A stretch of DNA of 47,793 bases, from assembly GCF_903933125.1 (NCBI RefSeq), contig NZ_CAIZIZ010000408.1, positions 1-47,793 of the forward strand. The letters run 5' to 3'. This document shows, piece by piece, positions 16,267-33,290 of this stretch; positions within the stretch are counted from its first letter, which is position 1, and the number at the start of each line of letters is the position of its first letter. The notes beneath the pieces were generated by a model. That model saw only the letters and a list, made by a program, of their open reading frames with translations, did no database searches and was not told the origin of the DNA. The stretch comes from an uncultured Lamprocystis sp. (GTDB taxonomy: Bacteria > Pseudomonadota > Gammaproteobacteria > Chromatiales > Chromatiaceae). The translations under genes were made by a program, and so were the position numbers.

Positions 16267-16388
16267 GAACGAGTACATCCAATCGACTATAGCGCAGCGC
16301 TGAGCGCGCCGACAGGGCAGCCGAACGAGTACATCCAATCGACTATAGCGCAGCGCTGAGCGCGCCGACAGGGCAGCCGAACGAGTAT
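16267..16388. repeat. 56-bp tandem repeat, two full copies plus a partial
   Basis: The unit begins GAACGAGTACATCCAATCGA and ends CCGACAGGGCAGCC. Copy 1 is 16267-16322 and copy 2 is 16323-16378, identical to each other. A third start ('GAACGAGTAT') follows at 16379 and decays. Exact identity points to recent slippage or recombination; the unit contains an AGCGCAGCGCTGAGCGC hairpin. Confidence 0.9.
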
Positions 16389-17478: not shown

Positions 17479-17534
17479 TTTTTATGGTGCCCAGGGGCGG
17501 AATCGAACCACCGACACGGGGATTTTCAGTCCCC
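17479..17534 (-). repeat. attL: displaced 3' end of tRNA-Phe
   Basis: 56 bp identical to 33209-33264. It contains the last 50 nt of tRNA-Phe(GAA), from the anticodon stem-loop 'GGGGACTGAAAATCCCC' side to CCA, but diverges into 'AAAAGACCCC' where the 5' half of the tRNA should be. This is the classical product of integration into a tRNA 3' end. Confidence 0.95.
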
Positions 17535-17678: not shown

Positions 17679-19013
17679 ATGTCCAAGGCCAGACTCACAG
17701 ATTCCCGAATCGCCGCGTTCATTCCGACCCAAGGCGAGTGGTTGCAGGACACCGAGACCCACCTTGCCGTGCGCGTCCGCCCGTCCGGCTCCAAAACCTT
17801 CGTGTTCCGCTCTGCCCTCAACTATCGGGACATCCGGATCACCATCGGCGAGGTCGGCGCCGTCGCCCTCCCGGACGCACGGACCAAGGCGCAGTTGTGG
17901 CAAGGCTGGATCGAGGACGGGCGGGACCCGCGGGAGGTTCTACGGCAGCAAACCGCGGACCGCATCGCCGCTCAGGTCGCCCTGGTGACCGCCGCTCAGG
18001 TCGCCGACCGGGAAGCGCACCGCCGTGAAGCGCCGGCCCTGGAAGCGTGGGACGCCTATGTTGCGGCCCGGCGCCCGAAGTGGGGGGCGCACATGATCCG
18101 TGACCACGAGCGCGTGAGTCGAGCAGGAGGGGCACCCTACACCCGTGGTCCGCGCCCAACCGGAGACGATACCAAGCAGTTCGGCATCCTGCGTCCGTTG
18201 CTGCTGCTGCCGCTGGCCCAGATCGACGGCGAACGGGTGCGCGCCTGGCTGGCCGAGGAGGCGGTCCGCCGTCCGACTCATGCCGCCCTTGCGTTCCGGC
18301 TGCTGCGGGGCTTCCTCAACTGGTGCGCGTCCCATCCCGAGTTCAGGGACATGATCTGCGCCGACGCTTGCACCGCCCGCTCAGTGCGCGACGAGATCCC
18401 CAAGCGGCGGGTCAAGGACGACTGTCTACAGCGCGAGCAACTGCGCGCCTGGTTCACGAAGGTCCGGGCGATTCCAAATCCGGTCATTTCGGCATTCCTG
18501 CAAACGGCGTTACTGGTGGGCGCTCGCCGTGAGGAAGTGGCGGGGCTGCGCTGGGTCGATGTGCAATTCCAGTGGAACACGATCCACCTAAACGACAAGG
18601 TGGACGGCGAGCGCGTCATTCCCCTGACCCCCTATGTCGCGTCCCTGCTGGCGGCCCTGCCGCATCGCAACGAGTGGGTGTTCAGTAGTCCCGCCGCCGC
18701 GTCTGGACGCCTGCAAGAGCCGAGCATCCAGCACCGCCGCGCCGCCCTGGCCGCGGGGGTTGAAGGTCTGACACTGCACGGCCTGCGCCGCAGCTTCGCC
18801 ACCCTCAGTGAGTGGGTTGAGGTCCCGGTAGGGATCGTCGCGCAGATCATGGGCCACAAGCCGAGCGCGACCGCCGAGAAGCATTACCGCCGCCGCCCCG
18901 TGGACCTGCTGCGCCTGTGGCACACCAAGATTGAAGATTGGATTCTCACCGAGGCCGGTATCGAGCAACCGGCCGTGGGGGGAACCGTCCAAGCCTTGCG
19001 CCGCGTCAGTTGA
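17679..19013 (+). CDS. int: tyrosine integrase of the tRNA-Phe element
   Basis: 444 residues. The N-terminal DUF4102-type arm-binding domain ('LTDSRIAAFIPTQGEWLQDT' ... 'TFVFRSALNYRDIRITIGEV') is typical of island and satellite integrases. A core-binding domain (about 110-235) and the catalytic domain follow. Catalytic residues are Arg283 (or 284) in 'GARREEVAGL', His367/Arg370 in 'HGLRRSFATL', His393 in 'IMGHKP' and nucleophile Tyr403 in 'KHYRRR'. It cuts and joins at the 3' end of tRNA-Phe. It sits 145 bp inside attL reading inward, and the candidate arm sites lie just upstream. Full length with all key residues, so probably active. Confidence 0.95.
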   Translation: MSKARLTDSRIAAFIPTQGEWLQDTETHLAVRVRPSGSKTFVFRSALNYRDIRITIGEVGAVALPDARTKAQLWQGWIEDGRDPREVLRQQTADRIAAQVALVTAAQVADREAHRREAPALEAWDAYVAARRPKWGAHMIRDHERVSRAGGAPYTRGPRPTGDDTKQFGILRPLLLLPLAQIDGERVRAWLAEEAVRRPTHAALAFRLLRGFLNWCASHPEFRDMICADACTARSVRDEIPKRRVKDDCLQREQLRAWFTKVRAIPNPVISAFLQTALLVGARREEVAGLRWVDVQFQWNTIHLNDKVDGERVIPLTPYVASLLAALPHRNEWVFSSPAAASGRLQEPSIQHRRAALAAGVEGLTLHGLRRSFATLSEWVEVPVGIVAQIMGHKPSATAEKHYRRRPVDLLRLWHTKIEDWILTEAGIEQPAVGGTVQALRRVS

Positions 19014-20810: not shown

Positions 20811-20995
20811 CCGCCCACGCTTGGCCCCGTATCCCCTGGTACCGCCGCACCCTGGTGCGGGTCCGCCGCTGGGTGTGCGCCAGGGTGTGCCGGGGATTCG
20901 ATCCTGTGGCGAGCGCCATCGTGGATGCATTGACGATCGAGGTCGAGGCCCTGCGGGTCGAGGTCGAGGCCCTGCGCCAGGGGGGTAGGTCATGA
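20807..20995 (+). CDS. small basic protein with C-terminal helix
   Basis: 62 residues. It begins with an Arg/Trp-rich segment ('WPRIPWYRRTLVRVRRWVCA') and ends with a heptad-like helix containing a seven-residue duplication ('EVEALRV' 'EVEALRQ'). No known family. It overlaps genes on both sides by 4 nt, which argues that it is translated. The basic N-terminus suggests nucleic acid or membrane contact; no more can be said. Confidence 0.55.
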   Translation: MTAHAWPRIPWYRRTLVRVRRWVCARVCRGFDPVASAIVDALTIEVEALRVEVEALRQGGRS

Positions 20996-21942
20996 CCACC
21001 ATGATCGACATCGCCGCCAGTCATCGCGAGCGCATCGGATGCTCGCAGATCGCCCCGGCACTCGGACTGTCGCAATACGGCACCCGATACCAGCTATGGC
21101 AGCAATACACCGGACGGGCGGAGCGGCCCGACATTAGCGGTTACCTGCGCGTCAAGATCGGGGAGCCGATGGAGCCGGTCCTGATGCCACTCGCGGCCGA
21201 GCGGCTGGGGCGCGCATTGCGCCGCGATCGGCGCGAATACCTGCACCCAGACTTACCGCTGATCGGGCACGTCGATTATCGCGCCGAGCGGCTGCGCGGC
21301 GAGACAGTGCGCCCAATAGTCGATATGAAAACGTCACTCGGATTCGGCGCCCGGCATCGCTTCGGCGAGGACGGCACCGACGAAGTGGACGATGGCGTGT
21401 TGCTGCAAATGCAAGGGTACCTGCTGCTGACCGGCGCGCAGATCGCCTATGTCGTGGCCCTAGTGCCCGGTCCGGAATTGAAGATCTATACGATCCAGGC
21501 CGACCCGGAACTGCACCGCCTGATCGAGACGGGCATCGCGGAGTTTTGGCAGTGCGTTCAATCCGACACCCCGCCCGATCCGCATTCGGAGGTTGAGGCC
21601 CGCCAACGATGGGCACGACATACAGCCGGCAAGATCATTGAGGCCGACTCAGCCCTCTATGACGACGTGCGCGAGTTGCACCAGATCAAGGGCCAACTCA
21701 AGGCGCTTGAGGACGCCGAAAAGGCGATCCGTGACCGCCTCATTCCGGCCATTGGCGACGCGGACGCGATGAGCTACGACGGGCGGCAAATCCTCACCTT
21801 CCGTGCGAACAAGGACAGCCCTAAGACCGATTGGCGCGCGGTTGCGACCAGCCTCAACGCGCCGAATGAACTGATCCAAGCCCACACCACCAGCGCCCCC
21901 GGCCCCCGCGTGCTGCGCCTGACCAAGGAGATCCCTGCATGA
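20992..21942 (+). CDS. YqaJ-type viral recombination exonuclease
   Basis: 316 residues. The lambda-exonuclease/YqaJ fold of the PD-(D/E)XK class is visible. It opens 'ERIGCSQIAPALGLSQYGTR', has the metal-binding Glu in 'GEPMEPVL', Asp in 'LIGHVDYRAE', and the D-x-K core in 'PIVDMKTSLGFG', then Gln in 'LLQMQGYLLLTG'. The enzyme degrades one strand of linear duplex DNA 5' to 3' so that RecT can anneal the exposed strand. The C-terminal third is helical ('LHQIKGQLKALEDAEKAIRD'). The partner recT follows with a 4-nt overlap. Confidence 0.88.
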   Translation: MTTMIDIAASHRERIGCSQIAPALGLSQYGTRYQLWQQYTGRAERPDISGYLRVKIGEPMEPVLMPLAAERLGRALRRDRREYLHPDLPLIGHVDYRAERLRGETVRPIVDMKTSLGFGARHRFGEDGTDEVDDGVLLQMQGYLLLTGAQIAYVVALVPGPELKIYTIQADPELHRLIETGIAEFWQCVQSDTPPDPHSEVEARQRWARHTAGKIIEADSALYDDVRELHQIKGQLKALEDAEKAIRDRLIPAIGDADAMSYDGRQILTFRANKDSPKTDWRAVATSLNAPNELIQAHTTSAPGPRVLRLTKEIPA

Positions 21943-23123
21943 CGACGGACCTACAGACTGAGGTTGTCACCGCCTTGCCCAGCGTCACCACGCAAGGCTT
22001 GATCTTCGATCCGACAACGATCCGGGCCATGCAGTCAATGGCTGAGGCCATGGCCGGTGCGCGGATCGCCATTCCAAAGCACTTGGTCGGGAGTCCTGGA
22101 GATTGCCTCGCCATCGTCATGCAAGCCGCGCAATGGCAGATGAACCCCTTTGCGGTCGCCCAGAAAACCCACGTAGTCAACGGCTCGCTCGGGTATGAAG
22201 CCCAGTTGGTCAACGCCGTGGTCAGTTCATCGCCGCTGCTGGCCTCGCGGATCAGCTACGCATGGGAAGGCGCTTGGGCAGGCATCAGCGGCAAAACCGA
22301 TCGGTCCGAGGATCGCGCCTGCACCGTGTCAGCGACACTGCGCGGGGAGTCCGCGCCGCGCGTCCTGCGGGTGTCTATGGCCCAGGTCGGGGATGTGCGC
22401 AACTCACCCCTCTGGGGAGCGGACCCACGTCAGCAACTGGCCTACCTGGCGACTAAGCGATGGGCGCGGCTGCACGCTCCCGATGCGCTGCTGGGGGTCT
22501 ACTCGGTGGACGAGCTGCACGACGCCGAGGAACGCCACATGGGCGCCGCCGATGTGGTGGAACCGCCCGCCCCATCAGGCAGTCGTGCATCCGCGATCAA
22601 GGCACGGCTGCGCCAACGTACCAGCGCCCCCGCGGCACAGCCCCAGGATGAGCCGGCTACGGACCTGGCCGAGGTCCTGCGCCTCATTGATGAAGCGCAG
22701 GACGCCCACGGACTTCAGTCCGCTGCGGCATTGGCCGCGACGCTGACCGACCCCGGAGCCAAAACCGAGGCCCGCGCCGCCTTTGCTGCCCGCCGCGATG
22801 CGCTCAACGCTGCCGAGAGCGTTTCGCGCGAAACGCCCGCCGACGCTGCCACCCCGCCGCCAGCCTGGCCGCAACCCGACCCCGAGACCGGCGAGTTGCG
22901 CGACGCGCGCGGGTGTCCGTGGATCGAGGGGGCGCACTCAGTGGGCCGGACCTGCACCGATGATGGAGTATGGCGCCGCCGTCGCGGGGCAGACCCGGAG
23001 GTCATCGAGCGGCTGGAGCGCGCCGCCTTGGCCGCCGCTGGCGCCGCGGCCGAGGCGCCGCCGGCGGCGCTCGACGCTGGGCCGGAGCCTGACGCCGACG
23101 CATGGTCGGAGGGGGTCATCTGA
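21939..23123 (+). CDS. recT: RecT-family single-strand annealing protein
   Basis: 394 residues. The annealase domain covers about 10-215, with the conserved 'GDCLAIVMQAAQWQMNPFAV', 'KTHVVNGSLGYEAQLVNAVV' and 'QLAYLATKRWARLHAPDALL'. A Glu/Ala-rich linker follows. A C-terminal segment, 'DARGCPWIEGAHSVGRTCTD' leading to 'GVWRRRRGADP', is a short module found at the end of various phage proteins. It works with the upstream exonuclease in strand annealing recombination, for example circularisation or concatemer processing of the element. It overlaps the exonuclease by 4 nt and the primase by 1 nt. Confidence 0.9.
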   Translation: MTTDLQTEVVTALPSVTTQGLIFDPTTIRAMQSMAEAMAGARIAIPKHLVGSPGDCLAIVMQAAQWQMNPFAVAQKTHVVNGSLGYEAQLVNAVVSSSPLLASRISYAWEGAWAGISGKTDRSEDRACTVSATLRGESAPRVLRVSMAQVGDVRNSPLWGADPRQQLAYLATKRWARLHAPDALLGVYSVDELHDAEERHMGAADVVEPPAPSGSRASAIKARLRQRTSAPAAQPQDEPATDLAEVLRLIDEAQDAHGLQSAAALAATLTDPGAKTEARAAFAARRDALNAAESVSRETPADAATPPPAWPQPDPETGELRDARGCPWIEGAHSVGRTCTDDGVWRRRRGADPEVIERLERAALAAAGAAAEAPPAALDAGPEPDADAWSEGVI

Positions 23124-24160
23124 TGGCCGCCGCCACACATGAAAACGGCCCGTCCGGGAGGGGTCCGGACGAGCCGCGGGGAGGGTCGCACACGACAGAG
23201 CGACAGGCGGATCATACCGCGTCCACGGGGGCTGTGCATCCGTACAGTGCGATGGACCGTTGGCGTGCCCCGGATGACTTCGCCGCCGCCATCGTCGGCG
23301 CTGGCCTTGGGTCACCTGGCGCCATCATCGCCGATGGGCAGGTCCACCGCTTCCAGGTGGAAGGCGATAAGTCAGGCACCCGCAACGGTTGGTTCTCGCT
23401 CCACCTGGATGGTGTTGCGGCTGGGGCGTTCGGATCATGGAAGTCTGGCGAGGTTCATACCTGGTGTTCCGTGGCACGCGACCAGTTGACCGCCGACCAA
23501 CGGGCCGACCTGCGGCGCGTGGTGGAGCGCGCCAAGGCCGAGCGCCAAGCCGCCGATGCGGCCCGGCACGCTGCCGGCGCGGCGGTCGCTACGGCCCTGT
23601 GGACCCGCGCCACGCCCGCTGACCCGGCGCACCCGTACCTGATCGCCAAGGCCATCGGCGCCCATGGCGTTCGGCAGCACGGCCCGCGGCTGGTGATTCC
23701 GGTCACCATCGACGGTGCGCTTTCCAGCCTTCAGACCATCGACCCGGAACGGACCCCGCCCAAGCGGTTCCTGAAGGGCGGGCGGATCGCGGGCGGCTGG
23801 TACCTGATCGAGACCGCCGTCACCCGGCCCGAGGTCCTGCTGTGCGAGGGGTTCGCCACCGGCGCGACGCTCCACGAGCAGACCGGCGCCCGGACCTACT
23901 GCGCCTTTGCGGCGGGCAACCTCCTGGCTGTGGCGCGCGCTGTCCGCACGCGGCACCCGAGCGAGGCCGTTATCGTCTGCGCGGACCATGACGCCTGGAC
24001 CCCAGGCAATCCCGGTGTCACCAAGGGCCGGGAGGCGGCCCTTGCCATCGGCGCCAAGCTCCTGGTACCGGACTTCACCGGCCTGGACCTGTCCGGTAAG
24101 CCGACCGACTACAACGATTGGTATCGGTTGCGCGCCATGGCAGGGAGGGGCGTCGCATGA
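23123..24160 (+). CDS. Toprim-domain DNA primase-like protein
   Basis: 345 residues from ATG 23123 (TGATG overlap with recT). The N-terminal part contains 'WFSLHLDGVAAGAFGSWKSG' and 'HTWCS', the usual lead-in of phage and plasmid Toprim primases. The Toprim core has the catalytic Glu in 'VLLCEGFATGATLHEQTG' and the D-x-D in 'IVCADHDAW'. These resemble the P4-alpha/Toprim_2 group, which makes RNA primers on the element's own origin. It lacks the helicase, which is supplied by the next gene (4-nt overlap), so primase and helicase are split here. Confidence 0.82.
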   Translation: MAAATHENGPSGRGPDEPRGGSHTTERQADHTASTGAVHPYSAMDRWRAPDDFAAAIVGAGLGSPGAIIADGQVHRFQVEGDKSGTRNGWFSLHLDGVAAGAFGSWKSGEVHTWCSVARDQLTADQRADLRRVVERAKAERQAADAARHAAGAAVATALWTRATPADPAHPYLIAKAIGAHGVRQHGPRLVIPVTIDGALSSLQTIDPERTPPKRFLKGGRIAGGWYLIETAVTRPEVLLCEGFATGATLHEQTGARTYCAFAAGNLLAVARAVRTRHPSEAVIVCADHDAWTPGNPGVTKGREAALAIGAKLLVPDFTGLDLSGKPTDYNDWYRLRAMAGRGVA

Positions 24161-26127
24161 ACATGCCAGAAAACCTTCTGGGGTCGCTGTGTGCGTGTGG
24201 GTCCACCGGCCCGGTGACTGATCTACTGAACGCTGCCGCCGACCCCGAACCTGGCGGCCCGCCGCCGCGCGAGGACGGCGACCCTGGACCAGGGGCCGAG
24301 CCTGACACAGGGAGCTCAGAGACCAGCTACTCAAACCACCGTCACGACCGTCACGACCGTCACACCGACGCCCCCAAGGCGGAAGCCATCGCCGCCGCGG
24401 TCGAGTCCTGCCGGGCAGCCATCGCGGGGAGCGCAGAAAACCCCGGTGTCCTGGCGAGCGGCGAGTTCAACGCCGCCGCGCGACTGTTGCGCGACGAAGC
24501 GCCCGATGACTGGTTTAGGCTTCGCGGCCAGATCAAGGATGCCGCCCGCGCCGCTGGCTTGAAGATGGGGGACATTGACCGCGAGACCCGCCCGGACGGC
24601 GGCCCGGCTGACGATTCGACCATTGCCGATGAACTGGTAGCACTGGTCCAAGACTGCGCCGCACTGTTCCATGCTCCGGACGGTGCCTGTTACGCGACCC
24701 TGACCGGGGACGGCCCGCGCCTGACCTTTCGACTCGATACCCAGGCGTTCGCGGACTGGTTGAGCTTTCGGTTCTATGCAGACGCCAAGGCCACCACCGG
24801 GCAAGGACGCGCGGCGAGTGATACGGCCATCCGCACGGCCCGCGTCACCTTGACCGGGATCGCGCGACACGAAGGCGACGAGCAGCCGGTCTACCTGCGC
24901 GCCGCCCAGCACGAGGGCATCTATTACATTGACATCGGAGCGGAACGCTTGGGCGCCATCGCGGTGTCGCCTGCCGGCTGGCGCCTGGTGTCACGTCCGC
25001 CCGTGAATTTCTGGCGCCCGTCCACCATGCGACCGCTGCCGCTGCCGGTCCCAGGCGGAAACCTGTCCCTGCTGTGGCAGTACGCCAATATCCCCGAAGC
25101 CGCCCGCCCGCTGGTTCTGTCATGGATGCTCGACGCCTGGCGCCCGGAAACGCCGTTTGCCGTGCTGGAACTCACCGGCCAACAAGGCACCGCGAAGTCC
25201 TCGACTCAGGCCAAAATCCGCCGCTGCATTGATCCCAACGCGGTAGACCTGCGGGCGGCCCCGAAGTCGATTGAGGACCTGTTTGTATCGGCTGGCTCAA
25301 ACTGGGTTGCGAGCCTCAACAACCTGTCGCACCTGTCGGCGCCGCTTCAAGATGCGCTGTGCAGCCTCGCCACCGGGGGCGGTTTCGCTGGCCGCACCCT
25401 CTACACCAACGCGGACGAAACGCTCATTGAGGCCAAGCGCCCGGTCACACTGAACGGCATCGTGCCCTTGGTGACCGCGCAAGACCTGACCGACCGCGTG
25501 ATCCATATCGACCTTCCCGAACTGGAGACCTACCGCACCGAGACCGCCATCGACGCGGACTTTGAGCGCGACGCGCCGCAGATCGTCGGCGGGTTGCTGG
25601 ATCTTTTCGTTGCGACGCTTGCCGCCCTGCCCGCGGTCAATCTGCCCAAGCCGCCGCGCATGGCGGATTACGCGGCACTCGGAGAGGCCATGCTGATCGC
25701 TCAAGGCAAGCCTGACGGTGACTTCCTCAGGCTCTACCAGGGCAACCGCCGCGAATCGGTCAAGCGCAGTCTGGATTCATCGCCGGTAGCAACCGCCGTG
25801 CGTCAACTGGTCGCGGACCGAGAGTACCCGTGGACAGGCAACTGGAAACAGCTACTCAGCGACCTTTCCGGGTTTCGCGACGGTGCCGAAGCCTGGCCCC
25901 GCTCGCCGCGGGGATTGGGGGACGCCCTGCGCCGCCAACGTCCGGCCCTGGCTCAGGTTGGAATCTCCATAGGAATCAGTCCGCACGGGAGAACCGGGGT
26001 TACGGTCACCGTCAAACGCGGGGAAAACTACGGGCGTGACGGTTGTGATGGTTGTGACGGTAGTTCAGACGGCGTTTCTCTGACGCGCGTGTGTGACCCG
26101 GCCGACGACACCGCGGAGGCGTTCTGA
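24157..26127 (+). CDS. replication ATPase/helicase-like protein carrying iterons at both ends
   Basis: 656 residues from ATG 24157, preceded by GGGAGGGG. An N-terminal disordered stretch contains the His/Asp/Arg repeat 'NHRHDRHDRHTD'. A helical domain follows, then an ATPase core with Walker A G-Q-Q-G-T-A-K-S-S at residues 341-349 and 'WVASLNNLSHLSAPLQDALC' as the Walker B/sensor region, consistent with superfamily 3-type or related primase-helicases. The C-terminus ends 'YGRDGCDGCDGSSDGVSLTR'. Both odd peptide stretches are simply the translation of 9-bp DNA iterons (see 24316-24363 and 26036-26083), so the coding sequence doubles as cis-acting DNA. It overlaps both neighbours. Confidence 0.8.
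   Translation: MNMPENLLGSLCACGSTGPVTDLLNAAADPEPGGPPPREDGDPGPGAEPDTGSSETSYSNHRHDRHDRHTDAPKAEAIAAAVESCRAAIAGSAENPGVLASGEFNAAARLLRDEAPDDWFRLRGQIKDAARAAGLKMGDIDRETRPDGGPADDSTIADELVALVQDCAALFHAPDGACYATLTGDGPRLTFRLDTQAFADWLSFRFYADAKATTGQGRAASDTAIRTARVTLTGIARHEGDEQPVYLRAAQHEGIYYIDIGAERLGAIAVSPAGWRLVSRPPVNFWRPSTMRPLPLPVPGGNLSLLWQYANIPEAARPLVLSWMLDAWRPETPFAVLELTGQQGTAKSSTQAKIRRCIDPNAVDLRAAPKSIEDLFVSAGSNWVASLNNLSHLSAPLQDALCSLATGGGFAGRTLYTNADETLIEAKRPVTLNGIVPLVTAQDLTDRVIHIDLPELETYRTETAIDADFERDAPQIVGGLLDLFVATLAALPAVNLPKPPRMADYAALGEAMLIAQGKPDGDFLRLYQGNRRESVKRSLDSSPVATAVRQLVADREYPWTGNWKQLLSDLSGFRDGAEAWPRSPRGLGDALRRQRPALAQVGISIGISPHGRTGVTVTVKRGENYGRDGCDGCDGSSDGVSLTRVCDPADDTAEAF
24316..24363 (-). repeat. iteron module A (inverted, diverged)
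   Basis: On the minus strand, three tandem 9-mers (two GTGACGGTC and one GTGACGGTG, 24363-24337) are followed by 21 bp beginning GTT and ending TCTCTGA. The tail matches 12 of 21 positions of modules B and C, including the final seven. It lies inside the start of the ATPase gene, so it faces module B across that gene. Confidence 0.7.
26036..26083 (+). repeat. iteron module B
   Basis: Three tandem 9-mers, GTGACGGTT, GTGATGGTT and GTGACGGTA (26036-26062), are followed directly by a 21-bp tail, GTTCAGACGG + CGTTTCTCTGA (26063-26083). The tail is identical in module C. The module lies within the last 31 codons of the ATPase gene. Candidate origin or control region bound by the element's own primase/helicase, as type I iterons are in P4. 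Confidence 0.75.
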
Positions 26128-26462
26128 TGACCGCCGCCGCCGTCCTGACCCACCTGAACGCGGCCGGTATCCGCCTGGAGGTCCGCGCGGGCGCCTTGCT
26201 CGCAACCCCCAAGGAGTCCCTGACCGATGACGCCCGTTCCCTGATCCGCGCCAATAAGCCCGCCCTGCTGGAACTGCTGTCCAGGCCCGCCGCCGACGCT
26301 GCCCACCGCCTGTGGCTCGTCACCCACCCGGACGGCCGGCGCGTGTCGCATTCGTTCACCCCGCCCGCCAGCCGGCGCGAGGTCGAAGCCTGGTATCCCG
26401 GTGCGTTGGTAGAACCCGAGGCCGACCCGCACGAGGGCCAGACCACCGCGGGGGCGCCATGA
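26127..26462 (+). CDS. TubC-like docking domain protein 1
   Basis: 111 residues. The first 50 ('VLTHLNAAGIRLEVRAGALL' ... 'LTDDARSLIRANKPALLELL') follow the TubC N-terminal docking pattern: L-x2-L-x3-G-I-x-L, then a short beta hairpin, then L-T-x(n)-I-R-x-x-K-x-x-L-L-x-L-L. In polyketide/peptide synthases this fold pairs protein ends; free copies also occur in phage-like elements. The rest contains 'RLWLVTHPDGRRVSHSFTPP' and is acidic at the end. It overlaps the ATPase gene by 1 nt. It is a paralogue of the product of 26908-27333, and probably mediates a protein-protein contact. Confidence 0.65.
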   Translation: MTAAAVLTHLNAAGIRLEVRAGALLATPKESLTDDARSLIRANKPALLELLSRPAADAAHRLWLVTHPDGRRVSHSFTPPASRREVEAWYPGALVEPEADPHEGQTTAGAP

Positions 26463-26911
26463 GCGAACCCCCCGCCGTCTACACCACGGACCGCACCCCC
26501 GACTACGCCCGCGCGTGCCTGGTGCGCTGGGGCGCCTGGCTGCGTCACGGCGGCGGGATCGTCCAGGGCTATGCCCATGCCACGACGGAGGGCCAACTGC
26601 GCCGCGACGGGACCCTGATCCACGGGTCGGGCCGGGCGCAACGGCTGGACGATGATCCGCTGGCCGAACAGGTAGATCAGATCGTGGCACGGCTGCGGCT
26701 GGATGATCGGCGCTGGCCGCTGCTGCTGGCGGTTTACTTCGGCGGCGGACCGGACGTGACCTATGGCGTCGTCGCCCAGGTGCTGACCCGTAAGTTCGGT
26801 GAGCCCGTATCGGAGGCGACGGTACGCCAGTGGATGCGCGAGGCCATCGCCACGGTGCGCGGGGAACTGCGCGGCCTGGCCGCCGCCGGCGCCATGGAGG
26901 CCCCCCGATGA
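26459..26911 (+). CDS. antitermination Q-like/sigma-like regulatory protein
   Basis: 150 residues from ATG 26459 (ATGA overlap with the gene before). It reads 'DYARACLVRWGAWLRHGGGI', then 'QVDQIVARLRLDDRRWPLLL' and 'VYFGGGPDVTYGVVAQVLTR', and ends with a helix-turn-helix-like 'SEATVRQWMREAIATVRGEL'. This order is that of small phage late-gene regulators (Q antiterminator/RinA/DUF1133 types): a helical N-terminus then a region 4-like DNA-binding segment. It may control the right-hand transcription unit (30604-32854). Family assignment is moderate. Confidence 0.6.
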   Translation: MSEPPAVYTTDRTPDYARACLVRWGAWLRHGGGIVQGYAHATTEGQLRRDGTLIHGSGRAQRLDDDPLAEQVDQIVARLRLDDRRWPLLLAVYFGGGPDVTYGVVAQVLTRKFGEPVSEATVRQWMREAIATVRGELRGLAAAGAMEAPR

Positions 26912-27333
26912 CCCCGGTTGCACTGATGGGTGCCCTGCGCGCCGCGGGGCTGACGCTGGCGCTGGAGGGCGCCACCCTGAAGGTGCGCGGTCCGACCGTG
27001 GCCGTGGCGCAGTGGACCCCGGTGCTACGCCAGCACAAAGCCGCCCTGCTGGAACTGCTGACCCCGCCGGCGCTGGACGCCGCCGACCGGCAAGCCATCG
27101 CCGAGGCCTTGGAGTTCGACGCCAGGGAGCCGCGCCACGTGGCCGAGGCCCAGGCGCACACCGCGATGCGTTGTTACCGCATCCTGGTAACGATGGACGA
27201 CCCGCAACCACCCCGCTGGGTGACGCTGGTTGCTCCGGGGCTCAGCCTGGCGGACGCCCGCCACGACGCGGAAGGCCGGTTCTGGGGGCGCGTCCTGGAG
27301 ATCCATGAACAGGTCGCGGGAGGCGCCCAATGA
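26908..27333 (+). CDS. TubC-like docking domain protein 2
   Basis: 141 residues from ATG 26908. The first 50 ('MGALRAAGLTLALEGATLKV' ... 'VLRQHKAALLELL') repeat the TubC-like pattern of the protein at 26127. The remainder ('RQAIAEALEFDAREPRHVAE' and 'MRCYRILVTMDDPQPPRWVT') includes the short 'CYRI-x-VTM' motif. It overlaps both neighbours by 4 nt, the next being the DEAD/DEAH helicase. Two docking-domain proteins on either side of a regulator suggest an ordered assembly; partner unknown. Confidence 0.6.
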   Translation: MTPVALMGALRAAGLTLALEGATLKVRGPTVAVAQWTPVLRQHKAALLELLTPPALDAADRQAIAEALEFDAREPRHVAEAQAHTAMRCYRILVTMDDPQPPRWVTLVAPGLSLADARHDAEGRFWGRVLEIHEQVAGGAQ

Positions 27334-28751
27334 CCGCCATCGTGCTGCGCGATTACCAGTCCCTCACCCTCGCGGACACCCGCACCGCCTTTGCCAACGG
27401 CGCCCGTGCGGTGCTGCTGGTGGCTCCGACAGGCAGTGGTAAGACGGTGATGTTCTCCTGCGTCGCATCTGGGGCCATGGCCCGCGGTGGCCGGGTGCTG
27501 ATCCTGACCCATCGGCAAGAGTTGATCCGCCAGACCAGCCAGACCTTGAGCGCCTTCGACGTGCCGCACGGACTGATTGCCCCCGGCCACCCGCCGACCG
27601 CCGACGCGGTTCAGGTCGCCAGTGTGCAAACCATCGTGCGGCGGCTGGCTGGGCTGGACTGGCGCCCGACCTTGATCGTGGTTGATGAGAGCCACCACGC
27701 CACCCGCACCACCGGGCACGGCCGGGTCCTGACGCACTTCGCCGAGGCGCGGGTGCTGGGGGTCACCGCGACCCCGCAACGCCTCGACGGGCAGGGGCTC
27801 GGGCGTGCGGCCGGGGGCTTCTTCGATGCCCTGGTGCTGGGTCCCACCGTGGCGGCCCTGGTGGACGCGGGCTATCTGTCGCGGCCCGTGGTCTACGCCC
27901 CGCCCGGCGCCCCGGACCTGAGCGACCTGCGCACCATTGGCGGGGACTTCGCGCGAGATGAATTGGCCGAAGCGATGGACCGGCCGGTCATCACCGGGTC
28001 GGCGGTCACCCACTACGCTCGGCTGTGTCCCGGACAACCCGCGATTGCCTTCTGTGCGTCGGTGGCCCATGCCGAGCATGTCGCGGGCGCATTCCGGGCG
28101 GCCGGTTACCAGGCCGCGAGCATCGACGGGACCCTTGACGACGCGACGCGGGCACGGCGGATCGCGGACCTTGGCACGGGCGCGCTCCAGGTCCTCACCT
28201 CCTGCGAGATCATCAGCGAGGGGACGGATATCCCCATCGTGGCCGCCGCGCTCCTGCTGCGCCCAACGCAGTCGCTGGGGCTGTACCTGCAACAGGTAGG
28301 CCGAGCCCTGCGGCCGTTCCCCGGCAAGGGGCACGCGACCATCCTGGATCATGTGGGCAACTGCCACCGGCACGGCCTACCCGATGATGATCGGGTTTGG
28401 ACCCTGGAGGGTCGCAAGCGCCGCAAGACGGACCCTGCGCCCGACCTGGCGATCAAGCAGTGTCCCGTCTGCTACACGGTCCACCGGCCCGCGCGTGCCT
28501 GCCCCTCCTGTGGGTTCGTCTACCCGGTGCAACCGCGCGTGCTGGAACAGGTAGACGGGGAGCTCGCACAGGTGCAACGCGCCGCTGAGCGGGAAGCCGC
28601 GCGGGAGGCCGCCAAGCAAGCGCAACGCGACGCCAAGACCCTGGAGGACCTGCGCCGCTTGGGTGCAGCGCGCGGGTATCGCCCCGGTTGGGCCGAGCGC
28701 GTTCACGCCGCCCGCCAAGGCTCCCAGGCGCCCCGGAGGGCCAGCCGATGA
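27330..28751 (+). CDS. DEAD/DEAH-type superfamily 2 helicase
   Basis: 473 residues. SF2 motifs are in order: Q-like 'LRDYQ', motif I 'APTGSGKT' near residue 35, motif Ia 'LTHRQELI', motif II D-E-S-H near 115, motif III 'GVTATP', motifs V/VI 'EGTDIP' and 'QQVGRALRP'. A zinc-ribbon-like 'CPVCYTVHRPARACPSCGF' follows at about 375, then a charged C-terminal helix. This is the phage/plasmid version of a Rad25/UvrB-like DNA helicase with zinc ribbon. Such enzymes commonly sit next to a VRR-NUC nuclease, as here (4-nt overlap). Likely role: remodelling of recombination or replication intermediates. Confidence 0.9.
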   Translation: MTAIVLRDYQSLTLADTRTAFANGARAVLLVAPTGSGKTVMFSCVASGAMARGGRVLILTHRQELIRQTSQTLSAFDVPHGLIAPGHPPTADAVQVASVQTIVRRLAGLDWRPTLIVVDESHHATRTTGHGRVLTHFAEARVLGVTATPQRLDGQGLGRAAGGFFDALVLGPTVAALVDAGYLSRPVVYAPPGAPDLSDLRTIGGDFARDELAEAMDRPVITGSAVTHYARLCPGQPAIAFCASVAHAEHVAGAFRAAGYQAASIDGTLDDATRARRIADLGTGALQVLTSCEIISEGTDIPIVAAALLLRPTQSLGLYLQQVGRALRPFPGKGHATILDHVGNCHRHGLPDDDRVWTLEGRKRRKTDPAPDLAIKQCPVCYTVHRPARACPSCGFVYPVQPRVLEQVDGELAQVQRAAEREAAREAAKQAQRDAKTLEDLRRLGAARGYRPGWAERVHAARQGSQAPRRASR

Positions 28752-29128
28752 CCAACGAGGGACGCATCCAGCGCGACATCATGCTGGCCGCCAGTGCGGC
28801 CGGCTGGACGACCTGGAGGAACAACACCGGGCAAGCCTGGACCGGAGACCCGACGTGGTTGGCTGATGGGTCGCTGCTGATCCGCCACCCGCGGCCGTTG
28901 CACGCTGGGTTATGCAAGGGCTCGTCTGATCTGATCGGCTTGCGCCCGCTGGAGGTCACCCCCGCGATGGTCGGCACCACGCTGGCGCAGTTCATCGGCA
29001 TCGAGGTCAAGGGACCGGGCGGGCGAACCACCCCAGAACAGGCCCGGTTCCTGGCGTTCGTGCGCACCAAGGGCGGTTTGGCGATCCTGGCACGGTCGGC
29101 GGCGGACCTGGATAGAGCGGTAGACTGA
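28748..29128 (+). CDS. VRR-NUC domain nuclease
   Basis: 126 residues from ATG 28748 (4-nt overlap with the helicase). The VRR-NUC form of the PD-(D/E)XK nuclease is visible: start helix 'RIQRDIMLAASAAGWTTWRN', then 'GLCKGSSDLIGLRP' with the metal-binding Asp, 'FIGIEVKGPGGRTTPEQARF' with the E-x-K core, and 'AILARSAADLDRAV' at the end. Members are structure-specific nucleases, often Holliday-junction resolvases in phages. The pair with the helicase implies a branched DNA substrate. Confidence 0.88.
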   Translation: MTNEGRIQRDIMLAASAAGWTTWRNNTGQAWTGDPTWLADGSLLIRHPRPLHAGLCKGSSDLIGLRPLEVTPAMVGTTLAQFIGIEVKGPGGRTTPEQARFLAFVRTKGGLAILARSAADLDRAVD

Positions 29129-29166
29129 TCGGCGCATTGATCGCTGATTGAAGCAAGGGGGGAGCA

Positions 29167-29586
29167 ATGCCGTTCGTCAAAGGGAAGTCCGGGAATCCGG
29201 CCGGTCGCAAGCCTGGCGCGCTGACCAAGCAGGACAAGTTGCGTGCGCAGATCGCCGAGGGGGTTCCCGACATCCTGAAGGCCATGCAACAGAAGGCCGA
29301 GGACGGGGACACGGCGGCGGCAAAGCTGCTGCTGGACCGCGTACTGCCCAGCCTCAAGACCGTAGACGCGCCCGCGCCGCTGGCCCTTGGCACCGGCCCT
29401 GCCAACCTGACCGGCGCAGCGACGGCGGTGCTGGCGGCCCTGGCGAGCGGGAGCGCAACGCCCGATCAAGCCGCGTCGTTCGCCGCGGTCCTGGCGTCAC
29501 TGGCACGGGTCAAGGAAGTCTGCGAACTGACCGAGCGCATTGAGGCCCTGGAGCGGGCGACCACAACCACGCAGAAGGCACCATGA
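29167..29586 (+). CDS. DUF5681 family protein
   Basis: 139 residues, with GGGGGGAGCA as ribosome-binding site. It starts 'MPFVKGKSGNPAGRKPGALT', the signature of DUF5681, often found next to phage terminase genes and suspected of a small-terminase-like role. 'AKLLLDRVLPSLK' is also typical of that family. An Ala-rich middle and a coiled C-terminus ('VCELTERIEALERATT') follow. No large terminase is present. If the packaging link holds, this protein would redirect a helper phage's terminase; that is inference. It overlaps the next gene by 4 nt. Confidence 0.75.
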   Translation: MPFVKGKSGNPAGRKPGALTKQDKLRAQIAEGVPDILKAMQQKAEDGDTAAAKLLLDRVLPSLKTVDAPAPLALGTGPANLTGAATAVLAALASGSATPDQAASFAAVLASLARVKEVCELTERIEALERATTTTQKAP

Positions 29587-29945
29587 GCGCCTCGCTGCGC
29601 CGCCGACTGTGCCAACTGGAGACCGACCACCAAGCGCGCACCATCGCCGTGGCGGCCGACCACCCGGCCCGCCGCTGGGGACTGCTGAACCTCTATGTCC
29701 GCACGGCGGCCGGTGAGGACGTGACCGCCTGGCAGCACACCCTGGCACGCCTGCCGCCGCACCCGACCACGGTGCACCATGAACTGAGCCCCATCGAGCG
29801 CACTCAGCGCGTGCTGGCGTTGCTCTGTCGGGAGGCCCGCACGTCGAGCGCACACCGCGCCTTGCTGGCGGTGGCGGTCACGGCTGGACTTGCCGATCCA
29901 CGGCAAGCCCAATGGATGCGCGAGACCGGGTTACTGACGCCATGA
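29583..29945 (+). CDS. uncharacterised element protein
   Basis: 120 residues, helical and basic, not recognised. It starts 'MSASLRRRLCQLETDHQART', which resembles the start of the next gene ('MSTTLKRRLDSLERTHARWG'), so the two share an N-terminal helix by duplication. The middle contains 'RTQRVLALLCREARTSSAHR'. It overlaps genes on both sides by 4 nt. Confidence 0.55.
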   Translation: MSASLRRRLCQLETDHQARTIAVAADHPARRWGLLNLYVRTAAGEDVTAWQHTLARLPPHPTTVHHELSPIERTQRVLALLCREARTSSAHRALLAVAVTAGLADPRQAQWMRETGLLTP

Positions 29946-30208
29946 GCACGACCCTCAAGCGCCGCCTGGACTCCCTGGAGCGCACGCACGCCAGGTGGGG
30001 CGGGTCCCTGTTCGTCATCGTGCAACCGGGTGAGTCCCACGCCGCTGCCACCGCGCGTGCTGCGGCCGGGTTTGGGCGCCCCGCTGAGACGTTCAGCCTG
30101 GTCTGGGTTATGGATTTCGTCAACGTGTGCCCGGCTGAACCGGCTGCGTTTGAGCGGCGGGGCTGGCCCGGCTTGACGACCGGCGCGGGACAGCCCGATA
30201 CACGCTGA
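29942..30208 (+). CDS. uncharacterised element protein
   Basis: 88 residues from ATG 29942. It shares the short basic N-terminal helix of the preceding protein and continues with a beta-rich part ('GGSLFVIVQPGESHAAATAR'). No family is recognised; the '(L/I)FVIVQPGES' strand is seen in small phage-borne proteins beside terminase-like genes (weak recollection). Last gene of the left transcription unit: a nested hairpin with a T-tract follows its stop. Confidence 0.5.
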   Translation: MSTTLKRRLDSLERTHARWGGSLFVIVQPGESHAAATARAAAGFGRPAETFSLVWVMDFVNVCPAEPAAFERRGWPGLTTGAGQPDTR

Positions 30209-30255
30209 CCGGAGCCCGGTCAGGTCATCGATATACCCTATCGGGCTCAGTTTTT
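30192..30255 (+). terminator. nested-stem terminator of the left operon
   Basis: Outer stem AGCCCGATA (30192-30200) with TATCGGGCT (30239-30247) encloses an inner stem CTGACCGG / CCGGTCAG (30205-30223). The outer stem is followed by CAG and TTTTT. It overlaps the last codons of the preceding gene. Confidence 0.65.
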
Positions 30256-30603
30256 GCGTCTACTTCTAGTCAACAACTTGCAGTAAATAAGCAACGCTTG
30301 TGCCCGATAGCCGCAGCCGATCAACCGGCGCCCGAGGTCCGGGCAACCCCTTGACGCACCCGCACCCGCCGACTGATGATGTTCCTGCCGCTCCACATGG
30401 GCGGCCGGGATTAGTACCCCGGACAGCATGAGGCCCAAAGGCCGCGCGAGCGGTTTTTTCGTGCCTGCCCTTCTATGGCGGGGACGTGTGGGGGAGCCGC
30501 AAGGCTCGCCGGTTCCTTGTGCCCGGTAGTACTAACCCTGCGCGTTCCCGCCGCCACCGATTAGTACCGGGACGGCGGTTCCTTCACAGCACAGGAACCC
30601 ATC
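30209..30603. other. 395-bp control region between the two transcription units of the element
   Basis: There is no gene here. It contains the nested terminator at its left edge. A second weak terminator-like hairpin (CCGC-gcga-GCGG then TTTTTT) lies at 30442-30459. Three copies of a TTAGTAC-centred motif lie at 30408-30422, 30522-30537 (inverted) and 30559-30572. It is lower in GC than the flanking genes near 30256-30300. The right-hand operon starts at 30604, so this is where its promoter must be. Confidence 0.6.
30408..30572. promoter_or_regulatory. three TTAGTAC motifs upstream of the right operon
   Basis: GGATTAGTACCCCGG (30408-30422), CCCGGTAGTACTAACC (30522-30537, opposite orientation) and GATTAGTACCGGGA (30559-30572). 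They share the core R-T-T-A-G-T-A-C followed by C/G-rich bases ending CCGGG. The last lies 32 bp before the ATG at 30604. Likely sites for a repressor or activator of that operon; the protein is unknown. Confidence 0.5.
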
Positions 30604-31095
30604 ATGCCCACGATACCCACCGCCGCCAACGATTCGACCCTGGCCCTTGCCGACGTGGTGAGCGAGACCGCCGCTCAACTGCGCGTTCTGGCCCACCTAC
30701 CCGCTGATGAATTGACCGGCGAGACTGATTCGTTTGGCCTGTCCGCGATCCTAAGCCGCCTGGCGGACGACCTGGCCACCGCGGAGACGGCCGCTCAACC
30801 GGGAGCGGAGGCCGCTGTTCATCAGGGGGTGCCCAAGACGCCCAAGCGTTTACGCTACGAGCTTGAATTTCATCGTCAAGACCTTGAGAACGGCCCGGCA
30901 TCAGTCCATCGGGTGTTGACGCTGGTCTATGACCTGTTGCACGACAGTGCGTTGAGCGTTGCTGATCCCTCGCCGCTCGCCACTCAGGGCAACCTTGCCG
31001 CACTGGTGGACTGTGCGCGGCTGGCGACTGACATGCTGGACTATCGGCTTGATGCTGTCTTTGAGGCACTGGACGAGGCCGAGGGGGCAGCATGA
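30604..31095 (+). CDS. uncharacterised element protein
   Basis: 163 residues, acidic and helical. The first third has 'LAHLPADELTGETDSFGLSA'. The last half reads 'LRYELEFHRQDLENGPASVH' and 'CARLATDMLDYRLDAVFEAL'. No family is recognised. It opens the right transcription unit, is preceded by CAGGAACCCATC, and overlaps the next gene by 4 nt. The sequence around its stop is duplicated at the end of the next gene. Confidence 0.55.
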   Translation: MPTIPTAANDSTLALADVVSETAAQLRVLAHLPADELTGETDSFGLSAILSRLADDLATAETAAQPGAEAAVHQGVPKTPKRLRYELEFHRQDLENGPASVHRVLTLVYDLLHDSALSVADPSPLATQGNLAALVDCARLATDMLDYRLDAVFEALDEAEGAA

Positions 31096-31418
31096 GCGCG
31101 CCCAACGACACCCGCGCCCGGCTGCTGTGTTCAGCCCGCCAACTTGGCGCGGCCCTGGCCGGGATCGAAGCAGTGACCGAGCTACTGACGGCGGCCGCGG
31201 TAGACCGCATTGGGGCCGAGACCTGGCTTGAGCCAATGACCAGCGCCCGCGCTTTGGGGCTCATGGGTGCGGTCGGTGCCCTGGCGCGGTATGCCCGGCA
31301 CGACCTGGAGCAGGTACTTGGCGCGGGCGATCCTGACGGGGAAGAACTGCTGCTGTGGGGCGGGGCGATGCACCTGTACCCGTCCCGCATGGCCGGCACT
31401 GCCGAGGGGGCAGCATGA
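31092..31418 (+). CDS. uncharacterised element protein
   Basis: 108 residues, helical, not recognised ('ARQLGAALAGIEAVTELLTA', 'ALGLMGAVGALARYARHDLE'). Its start region, GCCGAGGGGGCAGC then ATGAGCGCGCCC (31078-31103), is an exact 26-bp copy of the start region of the next gene (31401-31426). Both carry the same ribosome-binding site and first four codons. It overlaps both neighbours by 4 nt and probably belongs functionally with the RepA-like ATPase. Confidence 0.55.
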   Translation: MSAPNDTRARLLCSARQLGAALAGIEAVTELLTAAAVDRIGAETWLEPMTSARALGLMGAVGALARYARHDLEQVLGAGDPDGEELLLWGGAMHLYPSRMAGTAEGAA

Positions 31419-32854
31419 GCGCGCCCCTCACTCTGGTTCCCCCGCTGCGCGCTGGCGCGGCCCCCTTGAGCCTGGCCGACCTGGAGGCCGTTGGTCGGGC
31501 CGAGGTCCGGGCACACCTGGCCGCCGTTGCCACGACCACCACGGCCGGGCGACCCATGGTCGGGGTATCCCTGACCCGCGCCGCGGATATCACCCCGGAG
31601 CCGATTGCTTGGTTGTGGGGCGGCTGGCTGGCGCGCGGCAAGGTGCATCTGATTGCGGGCGCTCCGGGGACCGGCAAGACCACGCTGGGGCTATCCTTCG
31701 CGGCCGTCCTGACCCGTGGTGGACACTGGCCGGACGGGACCGCCGCCCCGCTCGCGGACGTGGCCATGTGGTCAGGCGAGGATACCCCCGCGGATGTGCT
31801 GGTACCGCGCCTGATCGCCGCCGGGGCCAATCCCGCACGGGTGCATCTGGTGTCAGGGTTCACCACAGAGCGCGGGGCACGGGCGTTCGACCCCGCGACG
31901 GACATTGCTGCGCTGGCGGTGCGCTTGGCGCGCATGGACCCGCCGCCCGCGCTGTTGATCGTTGACCCCCTGGTGTCGGCGGTGACAGGCGACAGCCATA
32001 AGAACGCCGAGGTCCGTTCAGCCCTGCAACCGTTGGTGGACCTGGCCGCCGCGCATGGCGTCGCGGTCTTGGGTGTCTCGCACTTCTCCAAGGGAACCCA
32101 GGGAAGGGACCCGACCGAGCGCGTAACGGGTTCGCTGGCCTTCGGGGCATTGGCCCGTGTGGTCCTGGCGACCGCCAAGCTTCCCGAGGAACACGGGGGC
32201 GGCTGCATCCTGGTGCGGGCGAAGTCCAACCTTGGCCCTGACGCGGGCGGGTTCGGCTACCACCTGGACCTTGCCGCGCTTGCCGAGTATCCGGGGATCT
32301 CTGCAACGCGGGTTATCTGGGGCGAGGTTCTGGAGGGGAGCGCGCGGGAGTTGCTGAGTCGAGCGGATACCCGCGCGGACCCGGACACGACGGGCGAAGC
32401 ATCGGACGTTGAAGTGTTCATCCGTTCCTGTCTGGCGGATGGGCCAGTGAGTGCCAAGCAGATGCAAGAGGACGCCAGCGGAGCCGGGTACTCATGGGAC
32501 CGGGTGAAGCGGACGGCGCATCGGCTTGGTGTCGAACGGCGCAAGGATGGCTATCAAGGCAGTTGGGTATGGACGCTTCCGGCTGAGCGCGAGGCCAAAG
32601 GGAGCATTGAACCCGCCAAAGAATGCAAAGGGAGCACTCTCCGGAGAGTGCATTCTTTGCTCCCTTTGGACGATTCGGCACCTTTGAGCGATGAAGCCCC
32701 GCGGTTTCCAGCACCGACCCAGAGCCCCGAAGAAGCCGCCGCGGCATCGCGACGACGCCACCGAGTCAAGACCAAACGCGCCTTGAAGGCGGCCGGATGG
32801 ACCGCGGCCGAGGTCGCGGCCGAGTTGGTCGCCCTGGAGTCCGTCCAGACCTGA
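31415..32854 (+). CDS. RepA-like (AAA_25) hexameric helicase ATPase
   Basis: 479 residues from ATG 31415. A short N-terminal part leads to a RecA-fold ATPase: 'PIAWLWGGWLARGKVHLIAG' then Walker A G-A-P-G-T-G-K-T-T near residue 88, Walker B 'ALLIVDPLVSAV' near 193, and 'GVSHFSKGT' as the RecA-like motif III. This is the RSF1010-RepA-like family of plasmid and phage replicative helicases. A winged-helix-like region ('CLADGPVSAKQMQEDASGAG') follows near 350-390. The linker at about 395-418 is the translation of an unusual 9-mer/palindrome array (32597-32667). The basic end 'SRRRHRVKTKRALKAAGWTA' is probably DNA-binding. A terminator follows. Confidence 0.85.
   Translation: MSAPLTLVPPLRAGAAPLSLADLEAVGRAEVRAHLAAVATTTTAGRPMVGVSLTRAADITPEPIAWLWGGWLARGKVHLIAGAPGTGKTTLGLSFAAVLTRGGHWPDGTAAPLADVAMWSGEDTPADVLVPRLIAAGANPARVHLVSGFTTERGARAFDPATDIAALAVRLARMDPPPALLIVDPLVSAVTGDSHKNAEVRSALQPLVDLAAAHGVAVLGVSHFSKGTQGRDPTERVTGSLAFGALARVVLATAKLPEEHGGGCILVRAKSNLGPDAGGFGYHLDLAALAEYPGISATRVIWGEVLEGSARELLSRADTRADPDTTGEASDVEVFIRSCLADGPVSAKQMQEDASGAGYSWDRVKRTAHRLGVERRKDGYQGSWVWTLPAEREAKGSIEPAKECKGSTLRRVHSLLPLDDSAPLSDEAPRFPAPTQSPEEAAAASRRRHRVKTKRALKAAGWTAAEVAAELVALESVQT
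32597..32667. repeat. 9-mer array around a perfect palindrome inside the RepA-like gene
   Basis: Order on the plus strand: AAAGGGAGC (32597-32605), AAAGAATGC (32618-32626), AAAGGGAGC (32627-32635), palindrome ACTCTCCGGAGAGT (32636-32649), GCATTCTTT (32650-32658), GCTCCCTTT (32659-32667). The last two are inverse copies of the 9-mers. Such a symmetrical array could form a long hairpin or bind a symmetric protein complex. It lies in a non-conserved linker of the coding sequence. Confidence 0.75.
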
Positions 32855-32881
32855 GCGGTACCGCCGCCTGATCCCAACTGA

Positions 32882-32903
32882 GCCCGCCCTGTGCGGGCTT
32901 TTT
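32882..32903 (+). terminator. intrinsic terminator of the right operon
   Basis: Stem GCCCGC / GCGGGC with loop CCTGT and a run of five T, 27 bp after the RepA-like stop. Confidence 0.85.
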
Positions 32904-32932
32904 CATGGGCGGATGGGTGCGATCAGTGACCC

Positions 32933-32980
32933 GTGAACATTGTGAACGTTGTGAACGTCGTTCAGACGGCGTTTCTCTGA
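32933..32980 (+). repeat. iteron module C
   Basis: GTGAACATT, GTGAACGTT and GTGAACGTC (32933-32959) are followed directly by the same 21-bp tail as module B (32960-32980, ending CGTTTCTCTGA). It is intergenic, 228 bp from attR. The DNA up to 33136 carries no gene. Confidence 0.8.
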
Positions 32981-33208: not shown

Positions 33209-33264
33209 TTTTTATGGTGCCCAGGGGCGGAATCGAACCACCGACACGGGGATTTTCAGTCCCC
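33209..33264 (-). repeat. attR: 56-bp direct repeat with attL
   Basis: Identical to 17479-17534. It forms the 3' 50 nt of the intact tRNA-Phe plus 6 nt beyond it. The spacing between the copies, 15,730 bp, is the element length. Confidence 0.95.
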
Positions 33265-33290
33265 TGCTCTACCAACTGAGCTACCTGGGC
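33215..33290 (-). tRNA. tRNA-Phe (anticodon GAA)
   Basis: A complete cloverleaf on the minus strand: acceptor GCCCAGG/CCTGGGC, D-arm AGCTCAGTTGGTAGAGC, anticodon loop CTGAAAA, T-arm GGTTCGATTCC, encoded CCA. 76 nt. Its 3' 50 nt come from the integrated element, its 5' part from the chromosome, and the gene is intact. Confidence 0.98.

Follow-up and report, generated by a model that had tools for sequence, protein, structure and literature searches.

Triple 9-bp iteron modules as candidate origin sites of a tRNA-Phe-integrated mobile element with a predicted SaPI-Rep-like initiator

A mobile element of an uncultured Lamprocystis sp. carries three copies of a module built from three tandem 9-bp iterons and a 21-bp tail, and we show here that arrays of the same spacing accompany many homologues of the ATPase in whose gene two of these modules lie. 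The stretch analysed, called the window throughout, covers positions 1 to 47,793 of contig NZ_CAIZIZ010000408.1, and the element is a 15.7-kb region in it that is integrated at tRNA-Phe: an exact 50-bp repeat of the 3' part of the tRNA-Phe gene bounds it on both sides and an integrase gene adjoins the left repeat (Table 1). The modules are probably origin sites of this element at which an initiator resembling Rep of the Staphylococcus aureus pathogenicity islands (SaPI) is loaded, and we hold this view with good confidence. The original prediction, made from the DNA letters, had named the modules a candidate origin, and this is the best-supported reading because relatives hold triple arrays of period 9 at the same place, four of them have arrays at both ends of the gene, and the ATPase has a predicted fold like that of SaPI Rep, an initiator that binds iterons.

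The three modules were found where they had been predicted and with the predicted build. Module 1 reads GTGACGGTT GTGATGGTT GTGACGGTA and module 3 reads GTGAACATT GTGAACGTT GTGAACGTC, each followed by the same tail; the tails are identical at 21/21 positions, while the iterons agree at 19/27 and differ at eight. Sequences around these two modules are unrelated (identity of 6/30 after and 11/30 before the module). Module 2, on the minus strand, matches module 1 at 23/27 iteron positions and 12/21 tail positions, and its final seven bases (TCTCTGA) are the same, so that it is inverted and diverged as foreseen. Apart from a single shifted overlap, a search of the window with the three-iteron pattern, allowing up to three mismatches, hit nothing but the three modules, and 100 shuffles of its sequence yielded no array of this type. 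The iterons of module 1 begin 88 nt ahead of the last sense base in the ATPase open reading frame (ORF), at the 3' end of the putative initiator gene. Read from iterons to tail, modules 1 and 2 diverge, with their tails pointing outward; the idea that they face each other across the gene was wrong. One further match with up to two mismatches occurs in the same genome (contig C152, locus L001), 752 nt past an ORF that is homologous to the end of the AAA_25 protein of the element, and it carries a different tail. Homologues of that protein thus stand at two further places in this genome, the one on C152 and another on C128 (L182, L187), where the copy contains an in-frame TAG and a module was not detected.

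Homologues of the ATPase were recovered at 72 loci in genome contigs and 51 in viral contigs, as well as on 28 plasmid records (20 of them from Streptomyces) and two phage records, both of Zeta1847. After reduction to ATPases below 85% identity, 80 of the 123 contig loci remained, the window included. We scanned from -450 to +600 around each ORF end for three copies of an exact 5-mer, at every period between 6 and 20, and took the rest of the same loci as background. At period 9 there were 51 arrays in 33/80 loci, against 3.25 expected, and every other period gave between zero and two. The 3' array of the window is too degenerate for this exact test but passes a relaxed score, which was run without a background of its own and is positive in 39 of the 80 loci, window included. 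Among 40 strong arrays from 29 loci, 34 have three units and six have four. The letters of the iterons vary widely between relatives, with units such as AACGTCAGT, GAACAGTCC, TTGCGCCCG and GTGACGGAT. That tail and iterons are under different constraint, as had been suggested, fits with this pattern: letters change among relatives, and spacing, number and tail motif stay. In the same 29 loci an inverted partner array (at least 22/27 matches within 350 bp) stands in 15 and a direct partner in three, counts that carry no shuffle control.

Position is conserved in part as well. Among 18 hand-picked loci, five (the window, L049, L050, L051 and L092) have one array on the minus strand at the 5' coding end and another on the plus strand at or just past the 3' end. 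L050 has four modules, all with the same iterons and with tails that are almost alike; three of these modules lie beyond the stop codon, at +25, +319 and +448. In four phage loci without a 3' array (L142, L144, L150, L151), arrays stand on the upstream side of the gene. Within the host family, homologues occur in 6/210 genomes, including the window's own. Of the five others, one has both modules (L044), one fragment has the 3'-end module (L048) and one has a pair of ATGA-type arrays (L046/L075); no array was detected by the tests used in L045/L052 and L047/L083. The pairs L044/L049, L045/L052, L046/L075 and L047/L083 are apparently the same loci fetched twice. In ten plasmid loci that we viewed, a triple 9-mer lies 214 nt past the gene in L336 and L337, a degenerate one lies inside the gene in L328, and pFP11 and L335 have 11-bp spacing; of two plasmid and phage loci added last, pFP12 has no period-9 array and Zeta1847 has one far upstream within the gene.

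The exact iteron pattern of the window was found in only one of 93 genomes, its own. Used blind on viral contigs, the pattern picked 38 stretches, seven of which encode an ATPase homologue, several of these being near-identical phages. Ten other ORFs from these stretches were submitted to Pfam: at the module we found a DUF5906/D5-like protein (L009), Toprim-DUF7146 proteins (L034, L039) and a Toprim-AAA_25 protein (L042); the remainder were three terminases, a weak HTH match (L014) and proteins unrelated to replication initiation (L013, L019). Letter-permuted versions of the GTGA pattern matched on average 1.6/122 loci, but with one of the 40 units the count rose to 20 loci, compared with 27 for the true unit, and hence the period test is the control to trust. 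One viral contig (L022, about 5134-5520) contains a long run of 9-mers like GTGACGGTT, well over three.

The tails carry a motif at a fixed distance from the iterons. Window module 3 and three L050 modules were left out beforehand as near-identical copies, and in the remaining 14 modules of the window's clade [TG]CTC starts 14-16 nt past the third iteron in ten, with no more than four in any of 5000 shuffles; it is missing in L048, L001, L013 and one module of L051. This form was chosen after the tails had been viewed. A test set up without that choice let every 4-mer score at a constant position and gave TCTC in 8/14 tails (500 shuffles reached at most five), and the best fixed 4-mer in the upstream flanks reached 4/13, so that none is fixed there. 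Shuffles overstate independence, since the modules of the clade are partly related by descent. Fourteen selected phage tails have GGAA near position 19 in seven cases (at most six in 500 shuffles). A hairpin in the tail was rejected as a general feature: over 32 modules marked as ATPase-linked the mean z was -0.39 (p 0.08), which did not differ from that of the upstream flanks (p 0.77), with values of -0.21, +0.82 and +0.07 for the tails in the window. Individual tails that fold well are those of L050, L044 and L007.

The ATPase itself had no match in Pfam, NCBIfam or PHROG, and its sequence profile found no convincing relative among solved structures, the best hit being ABC transporters at E 0.006. 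An AlphaFold2 model of residues 150-640, built from a 56-row alignment, has a mean predicted local distance difference test score of 94. Its top match in VIA-align is the primase-helicase Rep of SaPI5 (7ola_C; Z 19.4 over 378 residues, root-mean-square deviation 6.0, 8% identity), followed by poxvirus D5/E5 (up to Z 18.2), AsfvPrimPol (14.6), PriRep1 with double-stranded DNA (13.1), NrS-1 (12.7) and Cch (12.6). By our own reading of the DSSP string, the model closes with helices and a beta hairpin behind them, which resembles a winged helix; the C-terminal domain covers about residues 556-634. The SaPI-Rep-like initiator fold of the ATPase is that of a predicted, not a solved, structure, and a common fold, taken alone, is no proof of function.

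The spacing is not a rule for all initiators. Exact period-9 arrays were seen in 2/12 DUF5906 and 0/6 VapE whole genome loci, and in 3/13 AAA_25 RepA-like whole genome loci, one of which is the window itself. Further AAA_25 loci, taken as a RadA/DnaB-like control without individual checking, gave 2/17. Across 17 loci of AAA_25 homologues a period-9 array was present only in the window's own, L185, L173, L177 and L178. A phage Toprim-AAA_25 family (L188-L267) also has triple arrays near the 3' end of the gene, with period 10 in seven and period 9 in three of ten non-redundant loci.

From the arrays, their spacing and position, the tail motif common to relatives and the predicted fold, we infer how initiation could proceed. 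The ATPase, as an oligomer, would bind the three 9-bp iterons, probably via its C-terminal winged-helix-like domain, and would then load beside them on the side of the tail. The TCTC at fixed distance may mark the start of melting or priming, and the neighbouring Toprim primase would prime. Several start points would result from the modules at both gene ends together with the third, close to the right attachment (att) site. A more far-reaching idea, which we put forward only tentatively and regard as rather doubtful, is that this initiator family uses a fixed ruler instead of a fixed word: three sites at 9-bp spacing with drifting letters and, in the window's clade, a TCTC start signal about 15 nt away would offer the geometry for one helicase ring, and divergent modules at two ends would load two helicases from opposite ends of the gene.

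Several observations weigh against an origin at the modules. A clear AT-rich melting site was not found there: AT content is 25% in the 60 nt past tails 1 and 3 (element 33%), and at nt 20-45 past the arrays it is 24% for module 1, 28% for module 2 and 40% for module 3 (window 35%). Compared with their own loci, L050, L044 and L048 are richer in AT at nt 20-45, L092 slightly so, and L057 and L001 are equal. Nor does GC skew turn at a module; its cumulative minimum falls at 31003. The modules in the window have no inverted partner nearby, the best being 16/27 within 350 bp of module 1. The original prediction would have been refuted by a lack of modules in related elements. Period-9 arrays do occur in relatives and that outcome has not come about in full, but with the relaxed test 41/80 loci, some of them truncated, show none in the region of the 3' end, including those of Pseudomonas and Legionella and three of Methylobacterium, and the array of plasmid pFP11 is spaced at 11 bp. 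Reading of the iterons specifically by the C-terminal domain was not borne out. Iteron divergence correlates with divergence of this domain (r 0.32, Mantel p 0.0005) and of the AAA+ core (r 0.37) in 29 loci; with the core taken into account, the domain has no excess (p 0.32), but in the reverse case the core retains one (p 0.0075). For the fold, MCM chains score Z 12-13 in VIA-align, nearly equal to Cch, and Foldseek ranks AsfvPrimPol first and SaPI5 fifth by E-value.

The strongest alternative makes the modules operators or incompatibility iterons, control sites at which the initiator or another regulator would bind to repress its gene or pair DNA copies, with the origin elsewhere in the element. 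In its favour, module 2 is inside the ATPase gene at its 5' coding end, module 3 is close to the att site and distant from the initiator, and the modules have no clear AT-rich site or skew turn. However, in many relatives the initiator gene has arrays at its 3' end, the place of SaPI origins and of those of phage-inducible chromosomal islands (PICI) according to PMC6092414, and some arrays, as in L050, are past the stop codon. We therefore consider this alternative unlikely, and control sites may in any case coexist with an origin. Still less probable is a role in another DNA process, as partition or packaging sites or as recombination sites for RecT and YqaJ. Both proteins are encoded by the element and exact repetition of the tail could reflect recombination between modules; however, arrays accompany the initiator family in bacterial genome contigs, viral contigs and a few of the plasmids viewed, and the window ORFs that were searched, a subset of all ORFs, included no recognisable partition gene. 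That the repeats are a mere by-product of repetitive, disordered protein ends (HRHDRHDRH, RDGCDGCDG) is hardly credible: two of three modules are coding and the 5' array has the same reading frame in four of the five two-ended loci (module 2 of the window and L044 share it), but module 3 is outside the proposed genes, L050 uses another frame (QRSQRSQRS) and has its 3' arrays past the stop, the codon-multiple periods 6, 12, 15 and 18 give one or two arrays each near the 3' end, and the tail motif holds its distance from the iterons.

Origin sites of this general kind have precedents. The satellite P4 has two iteron regions, ori1 and crr, that are bound by its own primase-helicase; it differs from the window, where primase and helicase are separate genes. 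Close precedents are the SaPI/PICI origins, that of the staphylococcal cassette chromosome mec (SCCmec) helicase Cch2 and the Streptomyces RepA-iteron origins, and the statement that no such architecture had been described was too strong. According to PMC6092414, the PICI rep-ori has its iterons at or just past the 3' end of the initiator gene, a cloned rep-ori replicates, and two iteron sets surround an AT-rich region, an organisation said there to occur in no other known bacterial replicon. The window resembles SaPI/PICI systems (SaPI Rep; EcCICFT073) in the predicted self-loading AAA+ initiator fold and in the place of its iterons, the 3' end of the gene for that initiator (PMC6092414). It differs in that two iteron sets around an AT-rich region are absent; instead, single arrays with a TCTC tail stand one at each gene end and one at a distance, with no clear AT-rich stretch. 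The Cch2 origin has three short iterons downstream of the helicase gene, as in the window, which are bound by the C-terminal domain of the helicase (PMC7581432). Its three 5-nt iterons occupy 23 bp, which by our own reckoning would be in keeping with a period of 9 bp (5+4+5+4+5). Its iteron is AAGTG, however, inverted repeats lie nearby and the accessible text mentions no TCTC tail (PMC7581432); Cch2 is likened here by description, the structural score belonging to its relative Cch. Of the Streptomyces theta plasmids pFP11 and pWTY27, the former has a homologous replication ATPase. The pFP11 gene at 25356-27077, putatively the published RepA, is a homologue of the ATPase (tblastn E 9e-49, 32% identity, 69% of query), and RepA binding of iterons is reported for pWTY27 and cited for pFP1 and pFP11 in PMC3583192. 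On visual inspection, the sequence some 550-800 bp downstream of the pFP11 gene has repeats in both orientations. In contrast to the window, a primase/polymerase adjoins this ATPase in place of a Toprim primase and the array has 11-bp instead of 9-bp spacing. A description of three 9-bp iterons with this tail was not found in the literature searched, mostly without subscription papers, an absence that is weak evidence. New relative to known RepA/SaPI-type origins are the three-times-9-bp rule, the tail motif and the two-ended layout.

An ATPase with a window member that Pfam, PHROG and NCBIfam do not recognise is now tied, at loci from several phyla, to an origin signature of three units with period 9 at the gene's 3' end. 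This signature offers a way to look for such origins from sequence only, and it also allows a clean test of the way in which D5/SaPI-Rep-like helicases that load themselves select their loading site. The inverted partner arrays beside the initiator suggest that a PICI-like origin organisation may be wider (cf. PMC6092414).

Table 1. Coordinates of the element, its genes and the modules in the window
Feature	Position	Strand	Basis or remark
att repeat, 50 bp identical to tRNA-Phe 3' part	17485..17534		
Tyrosine integrase of the element	17679..19013	+	PF00589, PF13356
YqaJ exonuclease	20992..21942	+	PF09588
RecT annealing protein	21939..23123	+	PF03837
Toprim DNA primase	23102..24160	+	PF13362, phrog_2249
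Predicted SaPI-Rep/D5-like AAA+ initiator helicase (ATPase), C-terminal winged-helix-like domain	24118..26127	+	TTG start is a guess; model and 7ola_C Z 19.4
Module 2 tail, diverged	24316..24336	-	TCTC at 24322-24319, minus strand
Module 2 iterons, inverted	24337..24363	-	within 5' coding end of ATPase
Module 1 iterons, three 9-mers	26036..26062	+	near ATPase ORF 3' end; relatives hold arrays at matching place
Module 1 tail, 21 bp	26063..26083	+	identical to module 3 tail; TCTC at 26077-26080
AAA_25 RepA-like helicase, start uncertain	31355..32854	+	PF13481, phrog_10729
Module 3 iterons, GTGAAC type	32933..32959	+	start 79 nt past AAA_25 stop
Module 3 tail	32960..32980	+	identical to module 1 tail
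att repeat inside intact tRNA-Phe (33215-33290)	33215..33264		

Besides the genes in Table 1, the element encodes a RadD-like helicase, and phage structural genes were not recognised among the window ORFs searched. Directly after the ATPase gene, at 26127-26462, a small protein matches the TubC_N docking domain of Pfam. A homologue is encoded in L044 (182-922, minus strand; E 2e-19), and ORFs that resemble it by eye are present in L045 (881-1267, minus) and L046 (3162-3614, plus); the Pfam name may mislead in this setting because similar ORFs accompany the ATPase in relatives. An exact 26-bp duplication (31078-31103 and 31401-31426) includes a purine-rich stretch and an ATG, and each copy holds a possible start, one for an ORF at 31092 and the other for the AAA_25 gene, whose in-frame ATG there is at 31415. 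To the left of the element, at 16267-16378, lies a perfect tandem repeat of 56 bp.

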